From assembly GCA_001898625.1 (NCBI GenBank), contig MKUP01000022.1:124001-188000 (forward strand): a DNA stretch of 64,000 bases, read 5' to 3'. How positions within the stretch are numbered: position 1 is the first letter of the stretch; every line of letters begins with the position of its first letter. The notes beneath the pieces were generated by a model. It worked only from the letters and a program-made list of their open reading frames with translations. It had not been told where the DNA came from and did not search any database. This DNA comes from Burkholderiales bacterium 67-32. GTDB lineage: Bacteria; Pseudomonadota; Gammaproteobacteria; Burkholderiales; Burkholderiaceae_B. The position numbers were made by a program, and so were the translations under genes. Of the stretch, positions 15,863 through 62,757 are shown in pieces.

Positions 15863-15945
15863 AGGCCCCCCCCTACGCGCTGACGCGCGCCCCCCAGGGG
15901 GCGATGCGGGTGGACCGGCGGAGCCGGATCCACCGCATCCTGGGT
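15863..15945 (-). repeat. Three-hairpin dispersed element, copy A
   Basis: Begins at the base after the lysR stop codon with AGGCCCCCCCCTACGCGC. Read from the gene outward it contains hairpin 3 (GCGC...GCGC), hairpin 2 (CGCCCCC/GGGGGCG type) and hairpin 1 at about 15903-15939 with arms GATGCGGGTGGACCGGC and GCCGGATCCACCGCATC. Each arm of hairpin 1 carries one unpaired base, at the same positions as in the other four copies. It ends CCTGGGTCTAGT, which is mirrored at copy B. Confidence 0.9.
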
Positions 15946-15968
15946 CTAGTACCGTTATCTTGGGGTGT

Positions 15969-16013
15969 GGCTCCGTTGCTATCGCTGGCTGCCAGCGGTA
16001 GCAATCGTGAGCC
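15969..16013. repeat. Central hairpin between repeat copies A and B
   Basis: GGCTC and GAGCC bracket an inner 13-bp stem, TTGCTATCGCTGG at 15976-15988 and CCAGCGGTAGCAA at 15992-16004, with loop CTG and one wobble pair. With CCTGGGTCTAGT before it and ACTAGACCCAGG after it, it forms the middle of the large palindrome joining copies A and B. Confidence 0.85.
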
Positions 16014-16034
16014 AATCCGAGAGGATGGACTAGA

Positions 16035-16116
16035 CCCAGGAAACCGCGGATCTGGCTTTGCCAGTCCGCCGGTTTCGCCCCCTGGGGGGCGCCCGAAGGG
16101 CGTAGGGGGGGGACCT
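16035..16116 (+). repeat. Three-hairpin dispersed element, copy B
   Basis: Reverse orientation to copy A and ends at the base next to the thioesterase stop codon. Hairpin 1 has arms GAAACCGCGGATCTGGC (its first G shared with the preceding CCAGG) and GCCAGTCCGCCGGTTTC; hairpin 3 is GCCC-GAA-GGGC. Sequences of the stems differ from copy A but pairing is retained by compensatory changes, and the two single-base bulges are in the same places. Confidence 0.9.
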
Positions 16117-16527
16117 CTACCCTATTGCAGTTCGCAAATCGTCGGGCAGGGCGATCGACTTGTGCGTGTCCAGCGAGGTGGTGACCAGGGTCTGGACCGC
16201 CGACATCCGCACCACGTCGTCCGTGCCCACGCAGCGCCAGGCCAGCGTGATCGAACGGTTGCCCAGGCGCGTGACCTCCAGTTCCAGCCATACCTGTTCG
16301 CCGAAGCGGCTGATCGCCCGGAAGTCCGATTCGATGTGCACGGTCGGCATGCCCACCCGCCGCTCGCCCACCAGGCCGTGGTAGCCGCCGGGCAGGATCG
16401 CGTCTATCCAGCTCTCGACCAGGTCGTTGAACAGGATGAAGTACTGTGGATAGAAAATGATGCCGGCCGGGTCGCAGCGCGAGAAGTGGATCTTGTAGGG
16501 AAGGCGGAAGGTGTGCGCGGTTTGCAT
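16117..16527 (-). CDS. Acyl-CoA thioesterase, 4-hydroxybenzoyl-CoA thioesterase type
   Basis: 136-aa hotdog-fold protein. FSRCDPAGIIFYPQYFILFNDLVESW near residue 15 is the 4HBT motif with the catalytic Asp19. The family hydrolyses aromatic or short acyl-CoAs in the cytoplasm. Its end converges on the LysR gene across the A/B palindrome. Physiological substrate is not visible; proximity to aromatic genes makes an aroyl-CoA possible. Confidence 0.88.
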   Translation of the reverse strand: MQTAHTFRLPYKIHFSRCDPAGIIFYPQYFILFNDLVESWIDAILPGGYHGLVGERRVGMPTVHIESDFRAISRFGEQVWLELEVTRLGNRSITLAWRCVGTDDVVRMSAVQTLVTTSLDTHKSIALPDDLRTAIG

Positions 16528-16694
16528 GGGGAGGCAGGCAGGGTTCGTCAGGGAAGGGCGGGCGCGATCGGCTGGCGGAAGCTTACGCGATACTGGCTCG
16601 GACCCGCATGATCGAGATGGACGGGGACGACGTCGACGACGCCGGTCCCGGACGGGCTTGACAGTCGGTGCAGCAGGCTGCGCATGGGTGGGGC

Positions 16695-17003
16695 CTAGGC
16701 CGTGACAGCGTGCGCATGCCGTTTGATCTGCGCCAGGGTTTCCTTCCCGATGGCTTCCCTGGCTCGTTCGGTATCGTAGTGCGCTTGCAGGTTCATCCAG
16801 CTTTGCGCGTCGGTCCCGAAATAAATGCCCAGTCGCACGGCGGTATCGGCGGTAATGGCGCGCTGTCCCTTGACGATTTCGTTGATGCGCCGGGGCGGCA
16901 CACCGATGGCCTTGGCCAGGGCGTACTGTGTAATACCCATCGGCTCCAGCCAGTCGTGGAGCAGGGTCTCGCCGGGAGTGGCGAGGGGAACTTGTCGGGG
17001 CAC
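16695..17003 (-). CDS. higA: HigA-type antitoxin
   Basis: 102-aa XRE-family helix-turn-helix protein: PGETLLHDWLEPMGITQYALAKAIGVPPRRINEIVKG is diagnostic of HigA addiction-module antitoxins, followed by a C-terminal helix region DAQSWMNLQAHYD. It should bind the HigB toxin and repress the operon. GTG start at 17003, 13 bp after the end of the higB reading frame, so toxin precedes antitoxin as usual for higBA. Confidence 0.93.
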   Translation of the reverse strand: MPRQVPLATPGETLLHDWLEPMGITQYALAKAIGVPPRRINEIVKGQRAITADTAVRLGIYFGTDAQSWMNLQAHYDTERAREAIGKETLAQIKRHAHAVTA

Positions 17004-17016
17004 GGTGTTCTCCCTG

Positions 17017-17296
17017 TTAGTGATAATCCACGATCTCGACGTCGCTGGTGATCCCCGCGCTGAAGCGAAAGCACACGCGCCATTGAGCGTTGATCCGAAT
17101 GCTGTATTGTCCGGCCCGGTCGCCCGAGAGCGCCTCCAGCCTGTTTCCGGGGGGGCACGCGCAGGAAATCCAGTGTGGCAGCTGCGTGGATCTGCTGGAG
17201 TCTACGCATCGCCACCACTTCGATGTTGGCGAATCGTTTGACGTGTCTGCCCTGGAACAGGGCTTCAGTGTGGGGACACTTGAATGACAGGATCAT
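17017..17296 (-). pseudogene. higB: HigB-type toxin, frameshifted at a C7 run
   Basis: From ATG 17296 the frame encodes MILSFKCPHTEALFQG... up to DFLRVPP, then a run of seven C on the coding strand (G7 at 17149-17155) shifts it. With one C fewer the frame continues GNRLEALSGDRAGQYSIRINAQWRVCFRF and ends VEIVDYH just before higA, giving 92 aa, exactly the RelE/HigB mRNA-interferase length. The span is 280 bp, one more than 93 codons. The truncated product lacks the RelE-fold core (R-x-NAQWRVCFRF), so it should be inactive unless ribosomal or replication slippage restores the frame. A sequencing error in the homopolymer is possible. Confidence 0.88.
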
Positions 17297-17430
17297 TGGA
17301 TGGATAGTAACGTGTCGCGTTATTAATGTCGAGCGTCAATAACGCGGTATGTGGGGGGCCTTGCGGTGCGTCGTGCACCGCGAGTCTGCCATCCATTTCC
17401 CCGCTGTCGAACGGATCTAGGACATCCGCA

Positions 17431-18897
<1,467 letters not shown>

Positions 18898-18970
18898 GGA
18901 ATGTGCCGGTGGCGTGCGCGACTGCGACTATCCGCAGCTTACCGCGAGTCGGGTGCCGGCGGGGCGGGGA

Positions 18971-19567
18971 TCAGGGCAGGACGATGCCGGCCAGTCCCAG
19001 CAGCCGTGCCGTCTCGTACAGCGGCAGGCCCATCACGCCGGTGAAGCTACCGGCGATGTGCTGCACGAATACGCCGCCCAGGCCTTGTATCCCGTAGGCG
19101 CCGGCCTTGTCGTAGGGCTCGCCGGTATCGCAGTAGCGCGCGATGTCGCGCGGCGTCAGTGCGCGAAAGCGCACGCGGGTGATCGAGACGTCTTCGTGCA
19201 GCGCGCCGCGATGGACCAGCGCGAGGGCCGTGTGCACCTCGTGCTCGGACCCCGACAGCCGGCCCAGGATGCGTTGCGCGTCGTCGCGGTCGACCGGCTT
19301 GCCCAGCACTTCGCCGCCAAGGATGACGGTGGTGTCCGCCGCCAGGATGGGGCGTTCCGCCAGCTTGCGCTGCTTCAGCAGTTCGGCGCCCGTCAGCGCT
19401 TTTTCCCGGGCCGTGCGGCGCACGTAGTCAGCGGCGGGTTCGCCCGGCAACTGCGGCTCGTCGGGGCCGTCCGAGGGCGGCGGCAGCAGCAGTTCGTGCT
19501 CGACGCCCAGTTGCGCCAGCAGTTCCCGGCGGCGCGGGCTGCGCGAGGCGAGGTAGATGGGGGGCAT
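18971..19567 (-). CDS. maf: Maf-family nucleotide pyrophosphatase
   Basis: 198 aa. LASRSPRRRELLAQLG at residues 6-21 is the Maf signature and ADTTVILGGEVLGKP the second conserved block, as in YhdE-type dTTP/UTP pyrophosphatases that remove nucleotides from the pool and affect septum formation. Lies between rlmH (with repeat copy C in between) and rng, a conserved order in beta-proteobacteria. Confidence 0.95.
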   Translation of the reverse strand: MPPIYLASRSPRRRELLAQLGVEHELLLPPPSDGPDEPQLPGEPAADYVRRTAREKALTGAELLKQRKLAERPILAADTTVILGGEVLGKPVDRDDAQRILGRLSGSEHEVHTALALVHRGALHEDVSITRVRFRALTPRDIARYCDTGEPYDKAGAYGIQGLGGVFVQHIAGSFTGVMGLPLYETARLLGLAGIVLP

Positions 19568-19623
19568 GTCAGCGCCCCATGGCGCGATGCGCCTTTCGTG
19601 ACGGATGAAGCGGGTGCTGGTTG

Positions 19624-19710
19624 ATCCAGGACGCCGCGGATCCGGCTTTGCCGGTCCGCCAGCGTCGCCCCCTTGAGGGGGCCCGCGTAAGCGGGTAGGG
19701 GGTGGGTTTC
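19624..19710 (+). repeat. Three-hairpin dispersed element, copy C
   Basis: Lies 3 bp beyond the rlmH stop codon. Hairpin 1 arms are GACGCCGCGGATCCGGC and GCCGGTCCGCCAGCGTC; hairpin 2 is GCCCCC-TTGA-GGGGGC and hairpin 3 CCCGC-GTAA-GCGGG. The G run at the gene-proximal side is shorter and interrupted (GGGGGTGGG). Most divergent copy, yet all three hairpins and both bulges are kept. Confidence 0.85.
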
Positions 19711-19713
19711 ATC

Positions 19714-20187
19714 CTAGCCGCCTCGATGATAGGGATGGTTGGCCAGGATGGACCAGGCCCGGTACAGTTGCTCGGCCAGCAGCACGCGCACCATGCCGTG
19801 CGGCAGCGTCAGGCTGGACAGCCGCAGCATGCCGTGGCAGCGGCGCTTCAGGTCGGGGTCGAGCCCATCGGGCCCGCCGATCAGCAGGGCGACGTCCTGG
19901 CCGTCGTCGCGCCATTGCCGCATCTGCCCGGACAGGTCCATCGTGGTCAGGTCGCGGCCCCGTTCGTCCAGGGCCAGCCAGCGTCCGCCGGCGGGCAGGG
20001 CGGCTTCGATGCGCCGGGCTTCCAGGGCCTGCATCTGCGCGGCGGTCTTGCCCGTGGTGCGGGGCTCCGGCCGCACCTCGCGCAGCTCGATGGGCAGGTC
20101 GGGCGGCATGCGCTTGGCATAGTCCGCGTAGGCCTCGTCCACCCAGCCCGGCATGCGATGCCCCACGGCGATGATGATGAGTTTCAT
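19714..20187 (-). CDS. rlmH: 23S rRNA (pseudouridine1915-N3)-methyltransferase RlmH
   Basis: 157-aa SPOUT methyltransferase. [11 protein letters not shown] and the C-terminal knot [33 protein letters not shown] are diagnostic. It methylates pseudouridine 1915 in helix 69 of 23S rRNA. It follows rsfS by 19 bp, as in most proteobacteria. Confidence 0.97.
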
Positions 20188-20206
20188 GCGGGGCCGCCCG
20201 GAATGC

Positions 20207-20557
20207 CTATTGGTCCAGCAGCTTCACCCGGACGGGCTTGCCGCCCCAGACCTCTTCGAGGTTGTAGTACTGGCGGATGGCCGGTTGCATGATGTGGACG
20301 ACGATGTCGCCCAGGTCCACCAGCACCCACTCGCCGGTTTCCTCGCCTTCGGTGGCGATGACCTCGCCGCCCAGGGCCTTGATCTTCTCGCTCACGCTGG
20401 AAGCCAGGGCGCGGGTCTGCCGGTTCGAGGTGCCGCTTGCGATGACGACGCGGTCGAACAGACTGGTGAGGTGGGTGGTGTTCAGCACCGTGATGTTCTG
20501 CGCCTTGACGTCCTCGAGGGCATCGACGACGGCGCGTTGTAGTTTGCGTATGTCCAT
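20207..20557 (-). CDS. rsfS: Ribosome silencing factor RsfS
   Basis: 116 aa. [43 protein letters not shown] and [30 protein letters not shown] are the Iojap/RsfS signature. It binds L14 and blocks subunit joining in starvation. ATG at 20557, two bp after the nadD stop, so the two are translationally close. Confidence 0.96.
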
Positions 20558-20559
20558 AT

Positions 20560-21186
20560 TCAGGCCTGATACAGGCGATGCTGTGTGATATACCGAAGTA
20601 CGGCGGGGGGAACGAGGCCGTCGACCGATTCGCCGCGGGCCAGCCGCTGCCGGATGCCGGAGCTGGACACTGCCATCTCGGGCATGGGCAGCCGGTGCAG
20701 GGTGCGCCCGTGCCGTGCCAGCTCCGTATGGAGCGAGGCGGGCGGCTCGGGTTCGTTGCCAGGGCGGCCGGCCACCGCGAGATCGGCCAGCGCGACGATG
20801 CCCTGCCATTCATTCCAGGTGCAGAAATTCGCCAGTTGGTCCGCGCCCAGGATCCAGACGTAGCGGGCGCCAGCCGCCGGCGTACCCGTGCCGCCCGCCA
20901 GGGCGCGCAGGGTGTCGATGGTGTAGCTGGGGCCGCCGCGGTCGATCTCGATCCGGTTCAGGGCCAGGCCGGGCTGGCCGGCAATGGCCAGCGCGACCAT
21001 GTCGGCGCGCTGCTCCGCCGTGGCGGCCAGCGGCTGGCGCTGCCAGGGCGCGGCGGCGGGTATGAGCTGGACCGAAGCCGCGCCCAGATGGGTAAGCGCG
21101 GTGCGGGCCAGGGTCAGGTGCGCTTCGTGGATGGGGTCGAAGCTGCCTCCCAGCAAACCGATGCGCGGTGCCGTGGACGCGCTCAA
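20560..21186 (-). CDS. nadD: Nicotinate-nucleotide adenylyltransferase
   Basis: 208 aa. [15 protein letters not shown] holds the (H/T)xxH nucleotidyltransferase motif and [12 protein letters not shown] the ISSTxIR-like motif. It makes deamido-NAD in NAD synthesis. There is no ATG: the TTG at 21186 overlaps the hemF stop (TTGA), which points to translational coupling and a start at [14 protein letters not shown]. The longer open frame upstream is only the hemF antisense frame. Confidence 0.95.
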
Positions 21187-22091
21187 ACCCAGTCCCGGGG
21201 GGGCAGCAGTTCGTAGAGGCGAGCCTCGGGCGAACCGGGTTCGGGGTGCCAGTCGTAGCGCCATTGCGCCAGCGGCGGCATGGACATCAGGATGGACTCC
21301 GTGCGCCCGCCCGATTGCAGGCCGAACAGCGTGCCGCGGTCGAACACCAGGTTGAATTCGACGTAGCGTCCGCGGCGGTAGGCCTGGAAGTCGCGTTCGC
21401 GTTCGCCGTAGGGAAGCGCCAGGCGCTGGCGCACGATGGGCAGGTAGGCTTCCAGGAAGGCATCGCCCACCGAACGGGTGGCGGCGAAGGCATGGTCGAA
21501 GCCGCCTTCGTTGAAATCGTCGAAGAAGATGCCGCCCAGGCCCCGCGCTTCCTTGCGGTGCTTGAGGTAGAAGTACTCGTCGCACCACTTCTTGAAGCGC
21601 GGATGGAGATCGCCGCCGCTGGGGTCCAGCGCGGCCTTGCAGGCGCGGTGGAAATGGACCGCGTCTTCCTCGAAGGGATAGTACGGCGTGAGGTCCATGC
21701 CGCCGCCGAACCAGAACACGTCATCGTCGTCCGAGGCATGCACGGACTTGGCGATGAAGACGCGTACGTTCATGTGCACGGTGGGCACGTAAGGGTTGCG
21801 CGGGTGGATCACCAGCGAGACACCCATGGCTTCCCAGGGGCGTCCGGCCAGCTCGGGGCGATGGGCGCTGGCCGAGGGCGGCAGCGTGGCGCCGGTCACG
21901 TGGCTGAACAGCACGCCACCGCGTTCGAACACCCGCCCGCCTTCGATCAACCGGGAGACGCCGCCTCCGCCTTCGGCCCGTTCCCAGGCGTCCGAGCGGA
22001 AGGGATCGCCTTCGATTTCCTCCAGGCCCTGGACGATGCGGGACTGCAGGCCGGTGAAATAGGCGCGGGTCAGCGCGGTGTCTATCTTCAT
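21183..22091 (-). CDS. hemF: Oxygen-dependent coproporphyrinogen III oxidase
   Basis: 302 aa, typical length. [31 protein letters not shown] and [33 protein letters not shown] are the conserved HemF blocks. It converts coproporphyrinogen III to protoporphyrinogen IX with O2 in heme synthesis. Its ATG overlaps the purD stop by 3 bp (ATGA-type junction), and its stop overlaps nadD. Confidence 0.97.
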
Positions 22092-23383
22092 GCCGTGCCG
22101 GGCTCCGCCGGGGCGTTGCGGCGCGTGATGGCCCGCCAGCCGATGTCGCGGCGATACTGCGCACCGTCGAAATGGATGGATTGCAGCACGTCGTAGGCGC
22201 GCTGCTGCGCCAGCCGGGCGGAGTCGCCCAGCGCCGTGACGCACAGCACCCGGCCGCCGCTGGTCCGGACCTCGCCGCCGCTTTCGGTGGTGCCGGCATG
22301 GAACACCATGCTGTCGGGCGTCTCGGCGGGCAGGCCGTGGATGACGTCGCCGGCGCGCGGGGTGTCGGGATAGTTGTGGGCGGCCATGACCACGCCCAGC
22401 GCGGTGCGGCGGTCCCAGTCGATGTTGGCCTGGTCCAGCGTGCCGGCCACCGCGTGCTCGAAGACTTCCAGCAGGTCGCTCTTGACGCGCATCATGATGG
22501 GCTGCGTTTCCGGATCGCCCATGCGGCAGTTGAATTCCAGCACCTTGATGCCGTTCGGGCCGATCATGAGCCCGGCGTACAGGAAACCGGTGAACGGAAT
22601 GCCGTCCTTGGCCATGCCCTGGATGGTGGGCCAGATGACTTCGCGCATGATGCGGCCATGCAGCTCGGGCGTGACCACCGGGGCGGGCGAATAGGCGCCC
22701 ATGCCGCCGGTGTTGGGGCCTTCGTCGTTGTCCTTGAGGCGCTTGTGGTCCTGGCTGGTGGCCAGCGGCAGCACGTGCTTGCCGTCGCACAGCACGATGA
22801 AGCTGGCTTCCTCGCCCTCGAGGCATTCCTCGATCACCACGCGGGCGCCCGCCTGGCCCAGCTTGCCGTCGCCCAGCATGGCGTCGACCGCGGCGTGGGC
22901 TTCCTGGACCGACGTGGCGACCACCACGCCCTTGCCGGCGGCCAGGCCGTCGGCCTTGATGACGATGGGCGCGCCTTCCTGGTCGATGTAGGCGTGCGCC
23001 TGCGCGGGGTCGGTGAAGGTCTGGTACTTGGCGGTGGGAATGCTGTGCCGGACCATGAAGGCCTTGGCGAAGTCCTTGGAGCTTTCCAACTGCGCGGCGG
23101 CCTTGGTCGGGCCGAAGATCTTCAGTCCGCGCGCGCGGAAGATGTCCACCACGCCGGCCGCGAGCGGGGCCTCGGGGCCGACCACGGTCAGGCCTATGCC
23201 TTCCTTCTCGACGAAGTCGGCCAGTTGCGTCGGGTCGGTGATGGGAATGTTCTGCAGGTGCGAGGTCAGGGCCGTGCCGCCGTTGCCGGGGGCGACGAAC
23301 ACCTTCTGGGTCTTCGCGGCTTTGGCCAGTTGCCAGGCCAGGGCGTGTTCACGGCCGCCGGAGCCGATGACGAGAAGCTTCAT
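22088..23383 (-). CDS. purD: Phosphoribosylamine-glycine ligase
   Basis: 431-aa GARS with [19 protein letters not shown] at the start, the ATP-grasp region ([31 protein letters not shown]), [12 protein letters not shown] and [12 protein letters not shown]. Second step after phosphoribosylamine in purine synthesis. It lies 5 bp downstream of yebC and overlaps hemF, so yebC-purD-hemF-nadD-rsfS-rlmH is very likely one transcript. Confidence 0.97.
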
Positions 23384-23388
23384 GTGGG

Positions 23389-24114
23389 TTACTCGTCCAT
23401 GACCGCGGTGGTGTAGACCTCCTGGACGTCGTCCAGGGATTCCAGCACGTCCAGCAACTTCTGCATTTTCTCGGCATCCTCGCCGGACAGGGGTGTTTCG
23501 TTCAGCGCTTTCATCACGATGCCGTCCATCTCGGCCTTCAGGCCGGCGCCGTCGAAGGCCTGCTTGACGGCGACGTAGTCGGTGGGGGCACAGATGACTT
23601 CGATCACGCCTTCGTCGTCGGTGATGACGTCCTCGGCGCCGGCATCGAGCGCGAGCTCCATGACCTTGTCCTCGGGCGTGCCGGGGGCGAACAGGAACTG
23701 GCCGCAGTGCTTGAACATGAAAGCAACCGAGCCTTCCTGGCCCAGGTTGCCGCCGTGCTTGGCGAAGGCGTGGCGGACCTCGGCCACGGTGCGCGTGCGG
23801 TTGTCGGTCATGCAGTCGACGATGACGGCCGCTCCGCCGATGCCGTAGCCTTCGTAGCGGACTTCCTCGTAGTTGTCGCCGTCGGCTCCGCCGGCGCCCC
23901 GCGCAATGGCCCGGTGGATGGTGTCCTTGGGCATGTTGGCGTCGGTCGCCTTGTCCCACGCCAGGCGCAGGCGGGGGTTGGTGTCGGGGTCGGCGCCGCC
24001 GGCGCGGGCGGCCACGGTGACTTCACGTATCAGTTTGGTCCACAGCTTGCCGCGCTTGGCGTCTTGGCGCCCTTTGCGGTGCTGGATATTGGCCCATTTG
24101 CTATGTCCGGCCAT
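23389..24114 (-). CDS. yebC: YebC/PmpR family regulatory protein
   Basis: 241 aa. [23 protein letters not shown] and [37 protein letters not shown] are the family hallmarks. Members are reported as transcription factors and, more recently, as translation factors that relieve ribosome stalling at proline stretches. First gene of the minus-strand housekeeping run; promoter must lie in 24115-24349. Confidence 0.96.
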
Positions 24115-24349
24115 GGAAATCGCTTGTGTCGTAACGATGAAAGGGGCATTTTAGCTTGACCGGCAGGTGGCGGCTCCTGGCGGAGCGTCCACTTGCTGCC
24201 AATACCACAGACTGCGCGCCATCCCAGCCCTGCGAAAGGTGCCGGAGCGGGGCGCGGAGCCAGGCCCGGCGCGGCTTTTGACAAGAGCGGGGCCTTGCGC
24301 ACAGAATCCCCGCAACCCCCCGCCGCCCAGTTTGCCCAACGGAATCATC

Positions 24350-25873: not shown

Positions 25874-25953
25874 TATCCGCCGCGCATGACGCGGCCACGA
25901 AGTCCCTGCTGCGAGCAGGGACTATAAGTGAGTCTATTACTGCATTGACAACC

Positions 25954-25970: not shown

Positions 25971-25979
25971 AATGCCGGC

Positions 25980-29364: not shown

Positions 29365-29389
29365 GACCGCGCCGGCCACGGATGCTGCC

Positions 29390-54054: not shown

Positions 54055-54055
54055 T

Positions 54056-55510
54056 ATGAAACGACCCGCACACTCACTCGTGGCGGTGGCCGTCGCCGCC
54101 CTGTTGGGGGGATGCTCGCTGATCCCGACCTATGAGCGCCCGGCGGCGCCGGTGGAGGCGGATTTCTCCGCCCACGGCGCCGCGCCGGCCGGCGCGCAGC
54201 CGGCCACGGCCGACATCGGCTGGCGCCAGTTCTTTGGCGACGAACGCCTGCAACGGCTGATCGCGCTGTCGCTGGAAAACAACCGTGATCTGCGCGTGGC
54301 GGTGCTGAACATCGAGGCGGCCCGGGCCCAGTACGGCGTGACGCGCGCCGACCAGTTTCCCGGCGTCAATGCCAACGCGAACGGCACGCGCCAGCGCACG
54401 CCGGGCGACCTGTCGTATTCCGGCCGCTCCACCATAGGTAGCCAGTACCAGGTCAACCTGGGCGTGACCGCGTTCGAACTGGACCTGTTCGGCCGCGTCC
54501 GCAGCCTGAGCCAGGCGGCGCTGGCGCAGTACCTGGCCAGCGAGGAAACCCGGCGCAGCACGCAGATCAGCCTGGTGGCCCAACTGGCCAATGCCTACCT
54601 GAACGAGCGCTCCAGCGACGAGCTGCTGGCGCTGGCGCAGCGTACGCTGAAGACCCGGCAGGACTCGTACGGCCTGATCAAGCTGCGCTATGACGCCGGC
54701 GCGGCGTCCGAGCTGGAGCTCCAGCAGGCTGAGTCGCTGGTTCAGAGCGCCTTGTCCGAGCAGGCCATCGCCGAGCGCAACCGCGCCCAGGCGACCAATG
54801 CCATGGTGTTGCTGGTCGGCCAGCCCTTGCCCGCCGACCTGCCGGCACCGCGGCCGTTGAGCGAGCAGGCCCTGCTGGCCGACGTGCCGGTGGGCCTGTC
54901 GTCCGACCTGATCGAGCGCCGGCCCGACATCCGTTCGGCCGAGCAGCAACTGCGCAGCACCAATGCCAGCATCGGCGCCGCTCGCGCCGCGTTCTTCCCG
55001 AGGATTTCGCTGACCGGTGCGTTCGGCACCGCCAGCAGCCAGTTGTCCGGGCTGTTCGACAGCGGTTCGCTGGCCTGGAGCTTCGCGCCCCAGATCAGTC
55101 TGCCCATCTTCGACGGTGGCCGTAACCGGGCCAATCTCGACCTGGCCGAAGTTCGCAAGAACGTCGCGGTGGCCCAGTACGAGAAGACGATACAGACGGC
55201 GTTCCGGGAAGTGGCGGACGCGCTCGACGCCAAGGGGACCTACGACCGGCAGATTCAGTCGCAGCAGACGCTGGTGGATGCGTCCCGCCGCAGCCTGGAG
55301 TTGTCCGACATGCGGTATCGCAACGGGGTCGACAGCTACCTGCAACTGCTGGATTCGCAGCGGGCGCTGTTCACCGCCGAGCAGAGCCTGTTGCAGGCGC
55401 GCACTCAGCGCCTGAACAACCTGGTGGGCTTGTACAAGTCGCTGGGTGGCGGTTGGGAAGAGAACACGGTGGCTGCCAAGGCGGCGGCGCCAACCTCTAC
55501 CGTGCAATGA
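54056..55510 (+). CDS. RND outer-membrane factor lipoprotein (OprM-like)
   Basis: 484 aa. Lipobox LLGGCSLIP (Cys about 20), then the TolC-type structure with GWRQFFGDERLQRLIALSLENN and the second repeat PVGLSSDLIERRPDIRSAEQQL. Completes the RND tripartite pump. ATG at 54056 is 1 bp after the acrB stop; the frame extends upstream inside acrB without significance. Confidence 0.95.
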   Translation: MKRPAHSLVAVAVAALLGGCSLIPTYERPAAPVEADFSAHGAAPAGAQPATADIGWRQFFGDERLQRLIALSLENNRDLRVAVLNIEAARAQYGVTRADQFPGVNANANGTRQRTPGDLSYSGRSTIGSQYQVNLGVTAFELDLFGRVRSLSQAALAQYLASEETRRSTQISLVAQLANAYLNERSSDELLALAQRTLKTRQDSYGLIKLRYDAGAASELELQQAESLVQSALSEQAIAERNRAQATNAMVLLVGQPLPADLPAPRPLSEQALLADVPVGLSSDLIERRPDIRSAEQQLRSTNASIGAARAAFFPRISLTGAFGTASSQLSGLFDSGSLAWSFAPQISLPIFDGGRNRANLDLAEVRKNVAVAQYEKTIQTAFREVADALDAKGTYDRQIQSQQTLVDASRRSLELSDMRYRNGVDSYLQLLDSQRALFTAEQSLLQARTQRLNNLVGLYKSLGGGWEENTVAAKAAAPTSTVQ

Positions 55511-55514
55511 AAAA

Positions 55515-55543
55515 ACAAGGGGCGCTTCGGCGCCCCTTGTCAT
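55515..55543 (+). terminator. Terminator of the RND operon
   Basis: 11-bp stem ACAAGGGGCGC / GCGCCCCTTGT with a TTCG tetraloop, five bases after the stop codon, followed by CATT; a UUCG-capped terminator-like hairpin. Confidence 0.85.
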
Positions 55544-55596
55544 TCATCCCCCAGTCAGTCGTTTTCTTCATGGCCGATGCCTTGTCCCAATAAACA

Positions 55597-55627
55597 AAGG
55601 GCGTCTCCCGCTGGCGGGGACGCCCTT
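55597..55627 (-). terminator. Hairpin terminator for the small minus-strand gene
   Basis: AAGGGCGTC-TCCCGC...GCGGGG-ACGCCCTT with a short loop; read on the minus strand the stem is followed by TGTTTATTG. It lies 24 bp after the stop of the small gene at 55651. Confidence 0.75.
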
Positions 55628-55650
55628 GCCGAGGCACCGCATGGCGGCGA

Positions 55651-55842
55651 TCAGCCGTTGACGTACTGGACGTTGTAGCGGCGAGCGTTAGCCTTCAGGT
55701 CGGCGAACAGGTTCAGGACCTGGGTGGCCGCGGCGCGCAGGGTTTCGAACGGGCGGGGCTGTTCGAGTTCGTTGGCCAGCTCGCCACGGATCAGTTCGCG
55801 CTCGAGCGTGTCGGTCAACTTGCTGTCTTGAACGTATTTCAT
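55651..55842 (-). CDS. Small hypothetical protein (63 aa)
   Basis: MKYVQDSKLTDTLERELIRGELANELEQPRPFETLRAAATQVLNLFADLKANARRYNVQYVNG. Predicted helical, acidic-basic mixed, no signal peptide or membrane segment. GGA and a weak site lie before the ATG. It has its own terminator and a conserved-looking promoter with a repeated motif, so it is likely a real gene of unknown function. Confidence 0.6.
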   Translation of the reverse strand: MKYVQDSKLTDTLERELIRGELANELEQPRPFETLRAAATQVLNLFADLKANARRYNVQYVNG

Positions 55843-55864
55843 GGCTGTATCCTTTACAGTGGTT

Positions 55865-55887
55865 GCCTAGGTGTTAGTGCCTAGGTG
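55865..55887. repeat. Direct repeat of GCCTAGGTG in the small gene's leader
   Basis: GCCTAGGTG at 55865-55873 and again at 55879-55887, 14 bp apart (about 1.3 helical turns). Each contains the palindrome CCTAGG. They lie between the start codon of the small gene and an AT-rich CCTATATTAGGG stretch that may be its -10, so they may be an operator or a 5' leader element. Confidence 0.5.
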
Positions 55888-56018
55888 ATAACCCTATATT
55901 AGGGGAAACCCCAGGATAAGGCAAGCCCTTGTCGCATCGCAGCATGAATGAGGGGCAAGTGTTGCTGTCCAGCCTCATTTTTGATGCTTATGAATCACAT
56001 TACGGGAAAAAACAAAGC

Positions 56019-56807
56019 TCAGAGACGCGCGCGATAGGCGGCCGGAGTTTCCCCGAAGGTGCGCTTGAAAAGTCCGATGAACGCACTCGCCGTCGAATAA
56101 CCCAGGTCGAATGCGATGGCCGTCACGGATATTCCTGCCGCGAGCATCTCCAGCGACCGCATCATGCGTGCGCGCTGCCGCCAGGCCGTGAAGTTGAACC
56201 CTGTCTCGGCCACGAATCGCCGGCTCAGGGTGCGTGAACTGACGGCGGCCCACGCCGCCCAGCGCTCGAGGTCCCGATCGTCGGCCGGATCGGCAATCAG
56301 CGCCCGTGCTATGCGCTGCAGGCGCGGATCGTGCGGCAGCGGCAGCCCGAAGGGCTCGACCGGCAGGCTGCGGATCTCGTCGAGAATCACCGCGGCGACG
56401 TGGGCACGGGGCCCGGTCAGCGGCGCTGCGGTCACGGGTTCCCAAGCGCATGCCCGCAGCACCGCTTCCCGCAGCAGGCCGGAGGTTCGAAGGGTGCAGG
56501 GATGCTGCGGCAGATTCGCGCAGGCGGGCTCGGCGACGTAGACGCTCCAGCCATGAAATGGTCCGTGCGACCGGCCCGAATGGGGGGTATGCGGCGGCAG
56601 CCATACGGCGTGGATTGCAGGAACCAGCCACAGACCGTCATCGACTCCCACTGACAGCAGGCCCCGCAGCGACCCGAACAGTTGCCCACGCGCATGTTGG
56701 TGGGGAATGGCGGCCAATTCACCGTCGTGCCGGCCCTGGGCGGCGACCAGGATCGGTCCCTCCGACATATCGAGAAAGTGGCGCAATTGGAGGATGGGAT
56801 CAGACAT
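56019..56807 (-). CDS. AraC family regulator with cupin-like N-terminus
   Basis: 262 aa. C-terminal tandem HTH: DLERWAAWAAVSSRTLSRRFVAETGFNFTAWRQRARMMRSLEML followed by GYSTASAFIGLFKRTFGETPAAYRARL. The N-terminal part (IPHQHARGQLFGSLRGLLSV, AIHAVWLPPHTPH) is a cupin-type sensor. It is divergent from the pyridoxamine-oxidase-like gene and may regulate it. Confidence 0.9.
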   Translation of the reverse strand: MSDPILQLRHFLDMSEGPILVAAQGRHDGELAAIPHQHARGQLFGSLRGLLSVGVDDGLWLVPAIHAVWLPPHTPHSGRSHGPFHGWSVYVAEPACANLPQHPCTLRTSGLLREAVLRACAWEPVTAAPLTGPRAHVAAVILDEIRSLPVEPFGLPLPHDPRLQRIARALIADPADDRDLERWAAWAAVSSRTLSRRFVAETGFNFTAWRQRARMMRSLEMLAAGISVTAIAFDLGYSTASAFIGLFKRTFGETPAAYRARL

Positions 56808-56898
56808 GGCGGATTCAAGCTATCGAATGTCCGATACATTTTACAGCCGCCACATGAAGTCTCCTTAGACTGAAGGCCGTTCATGCAGGAGACCGCCC

Positions 56899-57552
56899 AT
56901 GCGCGCACAAGACATTCTTCCGGACCACTCCGACGAACCCGATCTGGACGCGCTCTATGCGCAGCCATCCGAAAGGATCCAGAAGGCGGTGCTGGACCGC
57001 CTGGTCGATTTTCACGTGGACTACCTCAGGTTTGCCACGTTCTTCTGCCTTGCCACGGGCAGCGGGCGGGGTCTGGATGCCTCGCCCCGTGGCGGCCCGC
57101 CCGGGTTTGTCCACGTGCTCGATTCGCACACGGTCGCTTTTGCCGATTGGCCGGGCAACAATCGCATCGAGTCGATGCGCAATTTGCGGCGCGACGAACG
57201 TCTCGGCATGCTGTTCCTGTTCCCCGGCTTGGAGATCTTCCTGCGCATCAATGGCCGCGGTCGCGTTTCCACGGCCGAAGAACTGCTGACCCGGTTGCGT
57301 GAAGGCGAACGGACACCCAAGACCGCCACTGTGGTGCAGATCGACGAAGTGCTGCTGCATTGTGGCAGGGCCATCAACCGCGCGGGACTCTGGAAGGACA
57401 GCTCCAGGCTCGACCGCCAGGCCCTGCCGACGGTCGGCCGGATGATGGCTTCACTCGCCAAGTTGGGCGATGACCCGGCCGAGATCGGTGATGCGCAGGT
57501 CGAGCAGATCGATGCGCACTACGATCATTCGGTCCGGCACGACCTGTACTGA
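56899..57552 (+). CDS. Pyridoxamine 5'-phosphate oxidase-related flavin protein
   Basis: 217 aa of the split-barrel FMN-binding fold (MSMEG_1061-type PPOX family): FATFFCLATGSGRGLDASPRGGPPGFVHVLDSHTVAFADWPGNNRIESMRNLRRDERLGMLFLFPG. Such proteins bind FMN or F420 and often act on small molecules of unknown identity. Likely regulated by the divergent AraC gene. Confidence 0.87.
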   Translation: MRAQDILPDHSDEPDLDALYAQPSERIQKAVLDRLVDFHVDYLRFATFFCLATGSGRGLDASPRGGPPGFVHVLDSHTVAFADWPGNNRIESMRNLRRDERLGMLFLFPGLEIFLRINGRGRVSTAEELLTRLREGERTPKTATVVQIDEVLLHCGRAINRAGLWKDSSRLDRQALPTVGRMMASLAKLGDDPAEIGDAQVEQIDAHYDHSVRHDLY

Positions 57553-57560
57553 AAACTTGC

Positions 57561-57583
57561 CCGCCGCGCATCGACGGCGGTTT
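57561..57583. terminator. Weak hairpin between convergent genes
   Basis: CCGCCG and CGGCGG around CGCATCGA, followed by TTTGGGC. It lies between the stops of the flavin protein and the RNA methyltransferase; stem is short. Confidence 0.4.
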
Positions 57584-57598
57584 GGGCGAGCTTGACGT

Positions 57599-59083
57599 TC
57601 AGCGGCGGAAACTGCCCTTGACCAGTTGGAAACCGAACAGCCGGCAGGCCAGTGCGCCGTTGTAGACGGGCGTGCGCCGGAACGGATCCAGGCGCAGCTT
57701 GCGGGGGAATTCCATGTCGCTGGTGATGACGTGCAACTGCCAGCCGCCGAATTCCCGCTTGAGCGTGCTGGCCCATTCGGTCCAGAGCTGGCGGTCTTCT
57801 TCCAGGTCCAGGCGTTCCCCGTAGGGCGGGTTGGTGACGAGCCAGCCTGCGCGTTCGTCCAGCGGGCAGGTGTCGCGCGCGTCGGCCACTTCGAAATAGA
57901 CCGCGTCCTCGGTCAGCCCCGCCCGATGGGCATTGTCGCGCGCCGCGTCGATCGCGCGCGGATCAATGTCGGCGCCGGCCAGCTGCATGGGCAGCTCGGG
58001 CAGGATGCGGGCGCGGGCGTCATCCTTCAGGTCGCGCCAGCGGCGGTCCTGGTGGCCGCGCAGGCGTTCGAAGGCGAAGGGGCGGGAGATGCCGGGCGGC
58101 ACGCGCAGGCCCTTGAGCGCGGCCTCGATCAGGATGGTGCCGCTGCCGCAGAAGGGGTCGATCAGCGGCACGTCGGCGGGCCAGCCGGACAGGGCCAGGA
58201 GGCCCGCCGCCAGGTTCTCGCGCAGCGGCGCCTCGCCCTTGTCCAGCCGCCAGCCGCGCTTGAACAGCGATTCGCCGGAGGTGTCCAGGTAGAGCGTGGC
58301 GCTGGTTTCGTCCAGGAAAGCATGCACGCGCGCATCGGGCCGCACGGTATCGATGCTGGGGCGTTCCCCCTCGAGCTCGCGCAGGCGATCGCAGATGCCG
58401 TCCTTGACCCGCAGGTTGCAGAACTGCAGGCTCTTCATCGGGCTGCGAACGGCCGAGGTGTCCACGCGCAGGGTCTGCTCGGCGCCGAACCAGCGCTCCC
58501 AGGGGGTGGCGCGGGCCAGTTCCAGCAGTTCGTCCTCGTCGCGCACGATGCCGTGCGCGACCTGGACTAGGACGCGGGTGGCCAGCCGCGACTCCAGGTT
58601 GGCGCGCATCATACCGTTCCAGTCGGCCGTGAAATGGGCGCCGGCGCGGCCGGGGTGGGCATCGTCGTAGCCCAGCGCATGCAGCTCGTCGACCAGAGCA
58701 TGTTCCAGGCCCTGCGGGCAGGGGGCGAACATGGCGAAGACCTCGGCCTGCGTGCCGCGAGGCCGCCGTTCCGTCCGCGGCTCGGCCGCGGGGGCTGGGG
58801 CGGGGCGGCCCGCGTGCCGCTCGCGCCGGCGGGCAACAGGCTCGTCGTCGCGTCGCGGCTGCGGTTTGCGGGGCGGCGCGTCGGGAGCCTGCCTCGGCTC
58901 ATCCGCAGCGGCGGGCTGCTTGCCGCCTTCGAGCGCCGCCCGTGCCACGCGATGAGCACGCGGGCCCGACCGGCTGCGCCGGTCGGTGTCCTGCGGGTCG
59001 CCGGACTGCCGCGGGCGGGTGCCGGTGGGGAGGGAAAGCGTCGGTTTCTTGCGCTCGGGAGTATCGGACAAGACGTGGGCCAA
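57599..59083 (-). CDS. THUMP-domain class I RNA methyltransferase (RlmL/RlmK-N-like)
   Basis: 494 aa. THUMP region (about residues 115-215, from MFAPCPQGLEHALVDEL), then the MTase core with LIDPFCGSGTILIEAALKG and NPPYGERLDLEEDR (the NPPY catalytic site for N2-methylguanine). Homologous to the N-terminal half of E. coli RlmL. The first ~115 residues are an Arg/Pro/Ala-rich low-complexity stretch with no ATG; the frame opens at a TTG at 59083, and a second TTG at 59071 (giving SDTPERKKPTLSLP) is equally possible. Adjacent to hemJ-like gene with no gap. Confidence 0.85.
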   Translation of the reverse strand: MAHVLSDTPERKKPTLSLPTGTRPRQSGDPQDTDRRSRSGPRAHRVARAALEGGKQPAAADEPRQAPDAPPRKPQPRRDDEPVARRRERHAGRPAPAPAAEPRTERRPRGTQAEVFAMFAPCPQGLEHALVDELHALGYDDAHPGRAGAHFTADWNGMMRANLESRLATRVLVQVAHGIVRDEDELLELARATPWERWFGAEQTLRVDTSAVRSPMKSLQFCNLRVKDGICDRLRELEGERPSIDTVRPDARVHAFLDETSATLYLDTSGESLFKRGWRLDKGEAPLRENLAAGLLALSGWPADVPLIDPFCGSGTILIEAALKGLRVPPGISRPFAFERLRGHQDRRWRDLKDDARARILPELPMQLAGADIDPRAIDAARDNAHRAGLTEDAVYFEVADARDTCPLDERAGWLVTNPPYGERLDLEEDRQLWTEWASTLKREFGGWQLHVITSDMEFPRKLRLDPFRRTPVYNGALACRLFGFQLVKGSFRR

Positions 59084-59506
59084 TCAGAAGGGTTTGACGA
59101 CAACGAGGACGGTGGCGGCCAGCAGCAGCAGCACGGGAACCTCGTTGAACCAGCGGTAGAACACGTGGGACCGGGCGTTGCGGCCGGCCTCGAACTTGCG
59201 CAGCAGGCTGCCACAGGCATGGTGGTAGCCGATGACCAGCACGACCACGGCCAGCTTGGCGTGCATCCAGCCGTTGCCGGGGCCGCGGCCTATACCATAG
59301 CCCACATACAGCCACAGGCCCAGCAGGACGGCCGGCACGGCCAGGATGGTTGTGAAGCGGAACAGCCGGCGCGCCATGCCCAGCAGCCGCGTGGCGGCGG
59401 CCGCGTTGGTTTCCTGCGCCAGGTTGACGAAGATGCGCGGCAGGTAGAACAGGCCGGCGAACCACGAGGCGACGAAGACGATGTGAAAAGCTTTCACCCA
59501 CAGCAT
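59084..59506 (-). CDS. HemJ/CopD-like membrane protein
   Basis: 140 aa with four hydrophobic segments; KAFHIVFVASWFAGLFYLPRIFVNLA and GNGWMHAKLAVVVLVIGYHHACG contain the conserved His/Lys residues of HemJ, the heme-pathway protoporphyrinogen oxidase of many proteobacteria lacking HemG/HemY. ATG at 59506 fits the family size; the frame is open further upstream. Confidence 0.85.
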   Translation of the reverse strand: MLWVKAFHIVFVASWFAGLFYLPRIFVNLAQETNAAAATRLLGMARRLFRFTTILAVPAVLLGLWLYVGYGIGRGPGNGWMHAKLAVVVLVIGYHHACGSLLRKFEAGRNARSHVFYRWFNEVPVLLLLAATVLVVVKPF

Positions 59507-59606
59507 AAGCGCTTCCTTGTCGATGCATGCATGCCGCCAGGGCGGCGGGATCGGGCGGCGGAGCGGGCCGTCGGGCCCTGGCCGCCGCATGGTGTCGGGC
59601 GTGGCG

Positions 59607-60872
59607 TCAGCCCCGCGTCTGGCCGTCGCCGGTCAGAATCCATTTAAGCGTGGTCAGCCCTTCCAGTCCGACCGGACCGCGGGCGTGCAGCTTGTTGGTC
59701 GAGATGCCGATCTCGGCGCCCAGGCCGTATTCGTAGCCATCGGCGAAACAGGTCGGCAGGTTGACGTAGACCGAGCTCGAGTCGACCTCGCGCTGGAAGC
59801 GGCGGGCGGCGGACAGGTTCTCGGTGACGATGGAGTCGGTGTGCTGGGAGCCGTGGGCCTCGATGTGGCCAATGGCCTGGCCCAGGTCGTCCACCACTTT
59901 GATCGACAGGATGGGGCCCAGGTATTCGGTGTCCCAGTCTTCCTCGGCCGCCGGCACGGCCTGCGGCACGAGCGCGCGGGTGCGCTCGCAGCCCCGCATC
60001 TCGACGCCGTGTCCGGCAAACGCCTGTCCCATCGCGGGCAGGAAGGCCGCCGCCACGTCGGCATGGACCAGCAGGGTTTCCATCGAGCCGCAGATGCCGT
60101 AGCGGTAGGTCTTGGCGTTGAACGCGATGGTGTGGGCCTTGGCCAGGTCGGCGTCGCGGTCGACGTAGACGTGGCAGATGCCGTCCAGGTGCTTGATGAC
60201 CGGCACCCGCGCTTCCTCGGACAGGCGCTTGATCAGCCCCTTGCCGCCTCGGGGAACGATGACGTCCACGTATTCGGTCATGGTGGCGAGCTTGCCCACG
60301 GCAGCCCGGTCGGTGGTCTCGACTACCTGCACGGCGTCGGCGGGCAGGCCGGCGGCTTCCAGGCCCGCGCGCACGATGCGGCCCAGCGCGGTGTTGGAAT
60401 GGATGGCTTCCGAACCGCCGCGCAGGATGGTGGCGTTGCCCGATTTCAGGCACAGCGCGGCCGCGTCGATGGTGACGTTGGGGCGCGATTCGTAGACGAT
60501 GGCGATGACGCCCAGCGGGACCCGCATGCGGGCCACCTGCATGCCGTTCGGCCGCGTGCGGGTCTCGGTCAGCTCGCCCACGGGGTCGGGCATGGCGGCG
60601 ATCTGTTCCAGGCCGGCGGCCATCAGCCCCAGGGCCTTGTCGGACAGCGTCAGGCGGTCCACCAGGGCCGCGTCCAGTCCATTGGCCCGGGCCGCTTCCA
60701 GATCCTTGGCGTTTTCCGCCTGGAGCCAGTCCTTGCGGTCGCGCAGGCCGGCCGCCATGGCGCGCAGCGCGGCGGCCTTGGCGCGGTCGTCGGCGCGCGC
60801 GACCTGCCGGGCGGCGGCGCGGGCGCTGGCGCCGATCCGGCGCATGGTTTGGTCGAGCGTAGAGGTATCCAT
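59607..60872 (-). CDS. proA: Gamma-glutamyl phosphate reductase
   Basis: 421 aa, ALDH fold. [32 protein letters not shown] and the Cys of [15 protein letters not shown] (the nucleophile region), ending [31 protein letters not shown]. Makes glutamate semialdehyde in proline synthesis. Ordered after holA as in many beta-proteobacteria. Confidence 0.96.
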
Positions 60873-60900
60873 CCGTATGAATCGCAGGGGGCGGGGCGCC

Positions 60901-61935
60901 TCAGGCCGCGAGCCTGAGCGCCAGCCGCGTGATTTCGTGCCACGGGTCCGGGAGGCGTCCCGGAACACGCAGTCCTTTGATGATCTTGTCCACTTCGTGG
61001 GCGTGGTGGACGGCGGCGGTCCAGGCCTGGGGGGGCAGTCGTTTGAGTGCCTGGTTGGCCAATTGTTCATGCGTACCGAAAAAACGCAGCGTGCGCATCA
61101 GCGCCGGCACGCTTTGCCCCTGCTGCCCGGCCTGGGCCAGGCGGGCCAGCAGGCGGATTTCCTCGCCCACCGCCCACAGCACCAGTGGCAGGGCCTCGCC
61201 CTCGGCGCGCAGGCCTTCGATCAGGCGCACCATGCGCTTGCCGTCGCCCGCCAGCATGGCGTCGCGCAGCTTGAAGACGTCGTAGCGCGCCACGTTCATG
61301 ACCGCGTCCTGCACCTGTTCCAGCGTCAGCGCGCCTTCGGGATACAGCAGGCCGAGCTTGAGGATTTCCTGGTGCGCGGCCAGCAGGTTGCCTTCGACGC
61401 GGTCGGCCAGCCATTGCAGGACCTCGGCGCCGGCGCGCTGCTTCTGCCGTGCCAGCCGCTCGCCCACCCAGCCGGGCAGCATCGGCCGTTCGATGGTGGG
61501 CACGTCCACGACCATGCCATGTTCGGCCAGCGCCGAGAACCAGGCCGACGCGCGGGTGGTCTTGTCCAGCTTGGGCAGCATCACCACCGTGACGCAGTCG
61601 CCCTGCTGGCCCGGCGCCTGCCGGGCCAGCCGCGCGATCACTTCGCCACCGGTCTTGCCGGGCTTGCCCGTGGGGATCTTCAATTCCAGCAGCCGGCGGT
61701 CGCCGAACAGCGAGATCGACTGCGACGCGCTCAGCAGTGCGTTCCAGTCGCTGCGCGCATCCGCCACCACCGTTTCCCGTTCCGTGAACCCGCCGGCCGT
61801 GGCCGCCACCCGCAAGGCGTCGCAGGCCTCGATCACGAGCAGGGGCTCATCACCGGTCACCGTATATAGCGGTTCCAACTGCTCGCCCGCCCGCTGAAGC
61901 TGGGCGATGAGTTGTTCGGGACGCAATTGCCTCAT
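60901..61935 (-). CDS. holA: DNA polymerase III delta subunit
   Basis: 344 aa. [42 protein letters not shown] at the start and [28 protein letters not shown] in the middle match HolA, the clamp-loader subunit that opens the beta clamp. It lies in the leuS-lptE-holA-proA arrangement with repeat copy D upstream. Confidence 0.95.
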
Positions 61936-61994
61936 GGCGTGCCTCCAACGGACCGATGAGCACCGAGGCCGACGGCGAGATCGCGCCGCTGTGA

Positions 61995-62076
61995 CCCAGG
62001 ATGCGGTGGATCCGGCTCCGCCGGTCCACTCGCATCGCCCCCTGGGGGGCGCGCGAAGCGCGTAGGGGGGGGCCTC
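61995..62076 (+). repeat. Three-hairpin dispersed element, copy D
   Basis: Lies between lptE (stop 10 bp away) and holA. Hairpin 1 arms GATGCGGTGGATCCGGC and GCCGGTCCACTCGCATC, hairpin 2 CGCCCCC-TG-GGGGGCG, hairpin 3 GCGCGAAGCGC. The C8 run abuts lptE. One base of hairpin 1 differs from copy E at the bulge-adjacent pair. Confidence 0.9.
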
Positions 62077-62086
62077 ATCTTCTTCA

Positions 62087-62626
62087 TCAACTGGGTTGCT
62101 TGGTCTCGACCGCGGCCATGCGGCGCAGTACCTGCTGCACGGTTTCGTTCTGCATGTCGCGATACAGCAGGTTGGCTTCGGAGTCCTTGGCCAGGGTGTT
62201 CGCGTCGCTGAAGGTCAGGTCGCGCTTGAGCGCGATGGTCGTGGGCGGGATGTAGTCCTGGCCCTTGCCGTCGTGGACGCGGAAGGCGAACAGGTAGCGC
62301 AGCTCGAATTCGCGCACACGGCCCGAGGCGTCCAGCGACAGGATGCTGCGCTCGCGCGTTTCCTGCAGGATCTGCAACTGCGCTTCCGCCGTCTTGGGAT
62401 CCTCGACGATGCGCGTATTGGTCGTGTTGCGCACGTAGCGGCGCAATTGCGCGCCAAGCTCGGAGGTATCGGCGGCGCCGATGTAGAGCGTGGAGAAGGG
62501 CAGGTCGGCCGTGCCCCGCAGCGCGAAGCCGCAGCCCGCCAGAAGTGCCAGCCCGCCGCTTGCCGCGGCTTGCAGCAGCATACGGCGTCGCGTATCAGCA
62601 GAGGACGAAGAGGACAACGGTTTCAT
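62087..62626 (-). CDS. lptE: LPS-assembly lipoprotein LptE
   Basis: 179 aa. Signal peptide with lipobox LLAGCGFALRG (Cys about 32; RRR precedes the hydrophobic core), followed by STLYIGAADTSELGAQLRRYVRNTTNTRIVEDPKTAEAQLQIL. LptE plugs the LptD barrel and delivers LPS to the surface. ATG at 62626 preferred. Gene order leuS-lptE-holA is conserved. Confidence 0.92.
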   Translation of the reverse strand: MKPLSSSSSADTRRRMLLQAAASGGLALLAGCGFALRGTADLPFSTLYIGAADTSELGAQLRRYVRNTTNTRIVEDPKTAEAQLQILQETRERSILSLDASGRVREFELRYLFAFRVHDGKGQDYIPPTTIALKRDLTFSDANTLAKDSEANLLYRDMQNETVQQVLRRMAAVETKQPS

Positions 62627-62672
62627 GCCAGTTTCCAAATCAAGACTTCACCAACGAAGCCCGTTGAGTTTC

Positions 62673-62757
62673 CCCAGGATGCGGTGGATCCGGCTCTGCC
62701 GGTCCACCCGCATCGCCCCCTGGGGGGCGCGCGTAAGCGCGTAGGGGGGGGCAGCCT
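62673..62757 (+). repeat. Three-hairpin dispersed element, copy E
   Basis: Ends adjacent to the leuS stop codon. Hairpin 1 arms at 62678-62694 (GATGCGGTGGATCCGGC) and 62698-62714 (GCCGGTCCACCCGCATC) around TCT; hairpin 3 is GCGC-GTAA-GCGC and is followed by GTAGGGGGGGG. Most complete copy and the reference for the consensus. Confidence 0.9.

Follow-up and report, generated by a model that had tools for sequence, protein, structure and literature searches.

Known Repeats of This Kind

Repeats comparable to the subject of this work, a three-hairpin element present in five copies in a 64,000-nucleotide (nt) stretch of Burkholderiales bacterium 67-32 (contig MKUP01000022.1, positions 124,001 to 188,000; the whole stretch is called the window below), have been described before, and the accounts given here follow the available excerpts of the papers cited. 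The Betaproteobacterial repeat element (BRE; Hot et al. 2011, PMC3110155) was reported to be 75–91 base pairs (bp) long, GC-rich, mostly intergenic, chromosomal, arranged in tandem with hardly any or no bases separating the units, and variable in copy number. It was detected in Alcaligenaceae and Comamonadaceae and as a single copy in Azoarcus, and was suspected to be mobile, with no function assigned in that excerpt (PMC3110155). Bor-1 was described as an intergenic, structured repeat of 93–117 bp with 128–196 copies (PMC2267715), and the Bor repeats were located near coding regions and proposed to stabilise mRNA in the manner of repetitive extragenic palindromic (REP) sequences (PMC1590033, PMC2267715). 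In E. coli, REPs affect translation only when they lie less than 16 nt from the stop codon (PMC12306157, citing an earlier study); 260 of 496 REPs were found within 15 nt of a stop in the cited study and 446 of 4,072 in the paper's own set. GTAG termini of such palindromes often provide a TAG stop (PMC3733652).

Placement at Stop Codons

The five window copies belong to a dispersed repeat family. As a preliminary description of the window had proposed, they share one consensus, with an alignment over ~80 nt, and each runs in the same sense as its adjoining gene, in the order stop codon, 3–14 nt, a run of C, hairpins A, B and C, and a CTGG end. A DNA profile (E 1e-3) gave 57 matches in 1.6 Mb of the window's genome (G000, Pigmentiphaga-type, 6.66 Mb), which extrapolates to ~240 genome-wide; the sample of 80 stretches of 20 kb was made up of parts of four large contigs and one 60-kb stretch picked for its matches.

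Placement is the strongest result of the analysis. With the seven of 57 matches lacking a 5' end left out, 31 of 50 own-genome copies start 0–15 nt past a same-sense stop according to an independent gene caller, compared with 2.6% expected at random intergenic places and strands (p ~1e-36). Of the 34 copies no farther than 300 nt from a gene end, 31 lie in the first 15 nt, where 11.5% are expected (p ~3e-26). A local open reading frame (ORF) rule placed 34 of 50 at 0–15 nt, with the stop inside the element in three and farther upstream in another three, and on the tail side a convergent stop lies within 15 nt in 4 of 50. Tandem copies, far from a stop by construction, stay in these counts, and the first columns of the model contain the end of some stop codons. 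Random orientation and placement, which the preliminary description had named as speaking against the RNA structure, is not what the count of orientation and stop distance gave.

The claimed position at gene 3' ends in sense orientation was upheld in the own genome and beyond it. Among best-scoring copies, 16 of 18 in other Pigmentiphaga and 36 of 47 in other genera stand at a same-sense stop, and one more of the latter has the stop inside; the gene caller was simple, used Pigmentiphaga codon usage for other genera too and missed some genes. Some copies of these two sets are orthologous (L201–L203; L199 and L205) or belong to one tandem array (L198, L274, L279), and L171 and L180, both from the own genome, were excluded from these counts. 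In a second bacterial family (f49), whose copies are diverged (48–71 bits to the model, hairpin A often longer), 16 of the 20 best-scoring copies have a stop whose end falls in the span from 9 nt ahead of model position 5 to 2 nt past it; the remainder comprise one stop inside hairpin A, two at 16 and 26 nt upstream and one copy without a clear gene.

The first hairpin begins 8–24 nt from the stop in 34 measured cases, and 8–14 nt in 26 of them. By the placement counts, a hairpin repeat lies within 15 nt behind the stop in most sampled copies, as in stop-proximal REP-type translational elements. For the window copies, the closeness to the stop noted earlier stands, but its range of 0–11 nt does not, as the main C-runs lie at distances of 3, 4, 11, 14 and 6 nt. 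The stops upstream of own-genome copies are TAG in 23, TGA in 11 and TAA in 3 cases (n=37). TAG is not a universal rule, since the copies in other Pigmentiphaga follow TAA (9) and TAG (7) with no TGA (n=16), and those in other genera follow TAG (18), TGA (11) and TAA (7; n=36).

Structure and the RNA Strand

In 36 own-genome copies, from which a covariance model of 82 positions (R1) was built, 97.3% of 900 pair cells are standard and 9 of 25 pairs have changed on both sides; the covariation score was 0.257, with shuffled versions at 0.095 and slid ones no higher than 0.07. Across genera, 79 distinct rows gave 96.8% standard pairs, 14 of 25 pairs with double-sided changes (one in the middle hairpin) and a score of 0.302 versus at most 0.101 for slid versions, in an alignment that leans to the model. 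A measure of further pair types was not above shuffles in the 36-copy set (478 of 500 were equally high). The covariation signal sits in hairpins A and C, and hairpin B is almost invariant.

Arms that vary and still pair, as first noticed in the window, are found both in the large hairpin (GATGCGG/CCGCATC, GAAACCG/CGGTTTC and, with one wobble, GACGCTG/CGGCGTC) and in the short one (CGCGC/GCGCG, CGCCC/GGGCG, CCCGC/GCGGG). The large hairpin retains one unpaired base per arm, but the position is not fixed as stated, because the base of the 5' arm shifts (columns 51–53 of A2). The earlier argument from covariation holds for the double-sided changes, present in two of three hairpins, but calls for caution as to selection. 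DNA palindromes can correct their own arms via template switching, and covariation alone is therefore no proof of selection.

A strand bias among wobble pairs is better evidence for RNA than covariation, with caveats of sampling. Across genera, 58 cells are G–U (12 pairs) and 15 are A–C (4 pairs), in rows that were gathered with a sense-strand model, R1 scoring sense-strand G–U as a pair, that are related by shared descent and that were aligned in A4 to fit the structure of the model. This bias favours an RNA read in gene sense, since A–C here equals G–U on the opposite strand; 10 of the 15 A–C cells come from one bulge-adjacent pair. The RNA of copy 5 with its flanks folded better than 200 of 200 shuffles (z -4.05). 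An outer stem linking both sides of the element (GATGAAA...TTTCATC in a few copies) was rejected, as over all copies it did no better than shuffled partners.

Sites With and Without the Element

Several element sites differ among the window's genome, G008 (mostly 94–97% identical to G000 over aligned blocks) and G004, which is taken to be P. kullae. At all five resolved presence/absence sites, whose alleles were compared unpolarised as to gain or loss, the element lies where the upstream gene ends. Neither allele of a further, sixth site (sample position 204346) had an open frame, so that it was dropped, and the set excludes G000:C22 101818 and 293135 as well as the G008-only 136214 (joined stretch). 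From the allele without to the allele with the element, the last codons before the stop change from WMLA to WMSI, from SLAQA or SPAQA to QSPPSTR, from KLLDQ to KLSPPPTR and from LIK to LIPPPTR, and are RY in both alleles of the remaining site. At three of the five sites the frame continues into the C-run and terminates at a TGA in the loop of hairpin A. The option of a mobile REP-like element, also raised in the preliminary description, agrees with these sites, but the family is not a GTAG REP of the kind moved by REP-associated tyrosine transposases (RAYTs).

The rsfS/rlmH gap of the window (20188–20206, no strand) is without an element. The gap is occupied in P. kullae, NML030171, NML080357 and P. 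humi, with the RsfS end running into the element in P. kullae (G004), and in L093 it resembles, by eye, a decayed element. The empty state in the window may therefore be a loss.

At another locus (L303, 4802–4882) the element is missing in G000, and the flanks in G004 carry a 10-nt direct repeat. It covers a gene's stop together with the start of the following gene and is a possible target-site duplication. As a general feature, target-site duplication was rejected, since L303 alone shows a possible repeat, which is insufficient.

Copies in the Window and Their Host Genes

Hairpin A of the window copies is CGCGC/GCGCG or a variant of it, hairpin B is C/G-rich, and hairpin C has 16 bp with a single extra base per arm and a three-base loop; the C-run is C8 in four copies and CCCACCCCC in the remaining one. 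The touched genes are a LysR-type regulator, a thioesterase-like gene, rlmH, lptE and leuS, of which the LysR-type regulator, the thioesterase and lptE scored under the model cut-offs and leuS was assigned from a partial sequence. All five copies lie in the sense of the touched gene, as described earlier.

Copy 1 (15866–15943, plus strand) starts 3 nt past the TAG stop of the LysR-type gene (14963–15862) and consists of the C-run (15866–15873), a hairpin (15876–15889), the C/G hairpin (15890–15902) and the bulged hairpin (15903–15939, extra bases at 15910 and 15928), followed by the CTGG tail. Copy 2 (16036–16112, minus strand) opposes it, with its C-run 4 nt past the stop (16117–16119) of the thioesterase-like gene (16117–16527). 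Copy 3 (19626–19706, minus strand) is of the CCCACCCCC subtype and lies in the rlmH/maf gap, its main C-run 11 nt past the rlmH stop (19714–19716). The C-run of copy 4 (61996–62072, minus strand), in the lptE/holA gap, is 14 nt past the lptE stop (62087–62089), and that of copy 5 (62674–62751, minus strand), in the leuS/lptE gap, is 6 nt past the leuS stop (62758–62760). A tRNA-Thr (CGT) at 20677–20765 (plus strand) overlaps the 5' part of the longest rsfS frame (20207–20809, minus strand). The true rsfS start is probably internal, as the RsfS domain spans residues 92–188 only.

Facing pairs between convergent genes can form a palindrome of ~250 nt. Between copies 1 and 2 lies a near-palindromic 92-nt core (15944–16035, no strand), which together with the two cassettes almost fills the convergent-gene gap, so that the whole dimer spans from stop to stop except for a few bases. 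The orthologous gap holds the same dimer type in three relatives; by eye, the cassette types are swapped in L091, and the core of L089 is the reverse complement of that of L091. Compared by eye with L089, L090 and L091, the dimer (15866–16112) appears rearranged between strains as if flipping in place. Single copies frequently retain part of the dimer core as a tail. A long form with an extra ~80-nt GC-rich block and further hairpins, near the same point of the middle hairpin, was observed at several loci, for instance in the G008 orthologue of copy 5 and in the G004 orthologues of G000:C33:313442 and 317999.

Distribution

With R1, at least 150 copies were counted in seven of 11 genomes of the genus, 43, 37 and 4 in three and none in one. 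With stricter filters, the element was found in 74 of 268 genomes and 7 of 43 genera of the bacterial family, and an order-wide draw gave 13 of 399 genomes with the element, four of them from the own family, eight from f49 and one, a weak match, from a third family.

Among genomes reached via named loci, 12 of 20 had R1 matches, namely P. kullae (at least 150), P. litoralis (43), Achromobacter aloeverae (50), A. insolitus (29), A. denitrificans (28), A. aegrifaciens (21), Achromobacter sp. Root83 (15), A. xylosoxidans (12), A. piechaudii (3), Bordetella genomosp. 13 (9) and two B. ansorpii (6 and 5). R1 found none in two Herbaspirillum genomes and in one genome each of Massilia, Eoetvoesiella, Pusillimonas, Pollutimonas, Thiomonas and Caldimonas. 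Carriage on a plasmid or phage was rejected, as the plasmid and phage collections gave no element match at the sensitivity used. The GC fraction was 0.64–0.84 among the matches listed, and tandem arrays of four to five copies occur in other genera, with a spacing of 86 nt in L198 and ~124 nt in L197.

Candidate Mobilisers and Known Classes

No Y1 transposase gene was found in G000–G009, nine of which bear the element; the statement that the window lacks a RAYT thus extends to its whole genome. Within the bacterial family, 16 of the 74 genomes bearing the element have Y1 genes, as do 48 of the 194 others, and 19 stretches around Y1 genes (16 from element-bearing genomes; four short, cut at contig ends) held no element at E 0.1. 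Mobilisation by RAYT/Y1 was therefore rejected for present-day genomes. A reverse transcriptase was undetected in 6 of 11 genus genomes, three of them with at least 150 copies, and RVT_1 had no match in G002, G004, G005 and G008. As a general mobiliser, reverse transcriptase is disfavoured by these element-rich genomes without it.

In Rfam, no family reached its gathering cut-off, the window included, the best being whalefall-1 with 19.3 bits versus 37, and membership in an Rfam family was discarded. In the copies inspected, the hairpins do not lead directly into a T-run, and an intrinsic terminator was rejected because it would have a U-run there. In a crude scan, a terminator-like site follows 6 of 34 element-bearing gene ends versus 59 of 619 other gene ends.

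Possible Roles and Rival Explanations

The RNA structure of the repeat likely affects how the message is finished. The preferred reading, held tentatively and with somewhat less than even confidence, is that of a dispersed, probably mobile repeat set mostly against gene stops, with a sense RNA that is predicted to influence the ribosome during termination. The ribosome encloses about 9 nt of mRNA past the stop. A stop codon placed in the A site would put the C-run within the mRNA channel and bring the first hairpin to the channel entrance, where its structure may slow release or clearance of the ribosome, by analogy with E. coli REPs within 15 nt of the stop. A further possible effect of the element is to keep the message from being degraded in the 3'-to-5' direction.

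Several observations weigh against this ribosome model. Insertion preference alone could produce the placement at stop codons, and the altered last codons at four of the five resolved sites resemble insertion damage rather than design. By the local ORF rule, 10 of 50 copies have no clear same-sense gene end, and in 8 of 34 the first hairpin lies 16–24 nt from the stop, past the E. coli limit. Hairpin B pairs with a probability of only ~0.42 in single-strand folding, as the C-run competes for the same G-run. As for the wobble cells, 42 of the 58 G–U across genera fall in two pairs, and in the strand-neutral own-genome set the 9 G–U and 2 A–C do not differ significantly (p 0.065).

Insertion targeting is the chief rival. 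The repeat would be a selfish, mobile piece of DNA inserting at the ends of genes, its hairpins serving DNA movement and its RNA idle for the host, and the fit to stops would result from the choice of insertion site together with a lost native gene tail and new stops at the junction. The presence and absence of copies between close genomes agrees with this, as do the frames that enter the C-run (PPxTR) and stop in the loop of the first hairpin at three of five sites, the frequency of TAG at own-genome copies (23 of 37, compared with 376 of 1273 gene stops, p ~4e-5), the tandem arrays and the at least 150 copies in some genomes versus a handful elsewhere. The explanation is somewhat less likely than the ribosome model, with several observations against it: the stop-codon rule holds in the strongly diverged f49 copies, wobble pairs lean toward the sense RNA strand, the searches for Y1, its surroundings and RVT_1 in the genomes named above gave no linked enzyme, and the stops are not rich in TAG in every set, as the other Pigmentiphaga show. 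It is quite unlikely that the family homes to translated gene ends in a more specific manner, its spread being linked to the termination of translation, or to RNA cleaved at stop codons, and not to any target motif in DNA, with no known transposase involved, and the last codons being replaced by a Pro-rich tail with a reserve stop in the loop of the first hairpin.

Unlikely, too, is a module for the 3' end of the mRNA, in which the C-run past the last ribosome would load Rho and the hairpins would block exonucleases, fixing and stabilising that end. Poly(C) is a strong Rho ligand, a short C-run lies near the stop in nearly all copies inspected, and few gene ends (the 59 of 619 above) have an intrinsic-terminator-like site; however, copies occur within likely operons (leuS-lptE-holA, rlmH-maf), where termination would cut off the downstream genes, 6 of 34 copies have a terminator-like site of their own after them, and the C-run has just 4–9 nt and is predicted to be about half paired. 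That the copies are passive leftovers, insertions elsewhere being harmful and copies persisting solely at gene ends, would be surprising. By reasoning, gene ends are the safest spots in short gaps, but the concentration of 31 of 34 copies in the first 15 nt, among those within 300 nt downstream of genes, disfavours it.

Comparison with Known Repeats

The repeat is genuine and structured and belongs to a known kind, and it follows a placement rule that is both new and strong; its function is inferred. A repeat listed since 2006–2011 in Bordetella and relatives now shows a strict rule, as it starts at stop codons and reads in gene sense in two bacterial families. It becomes testable whether many genes, leuS and lptE among them, have their output or 3' ends set by such elements, and the question is raised how a repeat without a recognised transposase locates gene ends.

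Compared with E. coli REPs, the window family shares a palindromic repeat directly behind the stop, the share of REPs so placed being lower than the 31 of 50 found here. REP units have 20–40 bp (PMC3733652), and many have a GTAG terminus and associated RAYT genes, whereas the window family has three hairpins, a leading C-run and no RAYT. With the GTAG/CGTC repeats, as far as the excerpt of PMC3733652 describes them, it has in common dispersed palindromes, pairs in opposite orientation and subfamilies by stem sequence, but it has no GTAG at the 5' foot of the hairpin (in sense) and a much larger unit.

The Bor and Bor-1 repeats, compared by description only, are likewise structured and intergenic in Bordetella; stop-codon placement is not stated in the excerpts of PMC1590033 and PMC2267715. 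BRE is ~90 bp, GC-rich, intergenic and tandem, and the present family has 82 positions, is also GC-rich and tandem, and occurs in Bordetella (genomosp. 13 and B. ansorpii) as well; none of the 23 locus rows of Table 3 in the excerpt of PMC3110155 is a divergent gene gap. BRE differs in having 1–29 copies per genome, some within genes, and in a description whose excerpt gives no secondary structure, stop-codon rule or function (PMC3110155). By size, habit and taxa, not by letters, the window family is very probably the 2011 element BRE, alias Bor-1, amplified in Pigmentiphaga. Relative to the BRE and Bor-1 descriptions, as far as their excerpts extend, the rule of placement at stop codons, the evidence for the sense RNA strand and the changed ends of genes are new.

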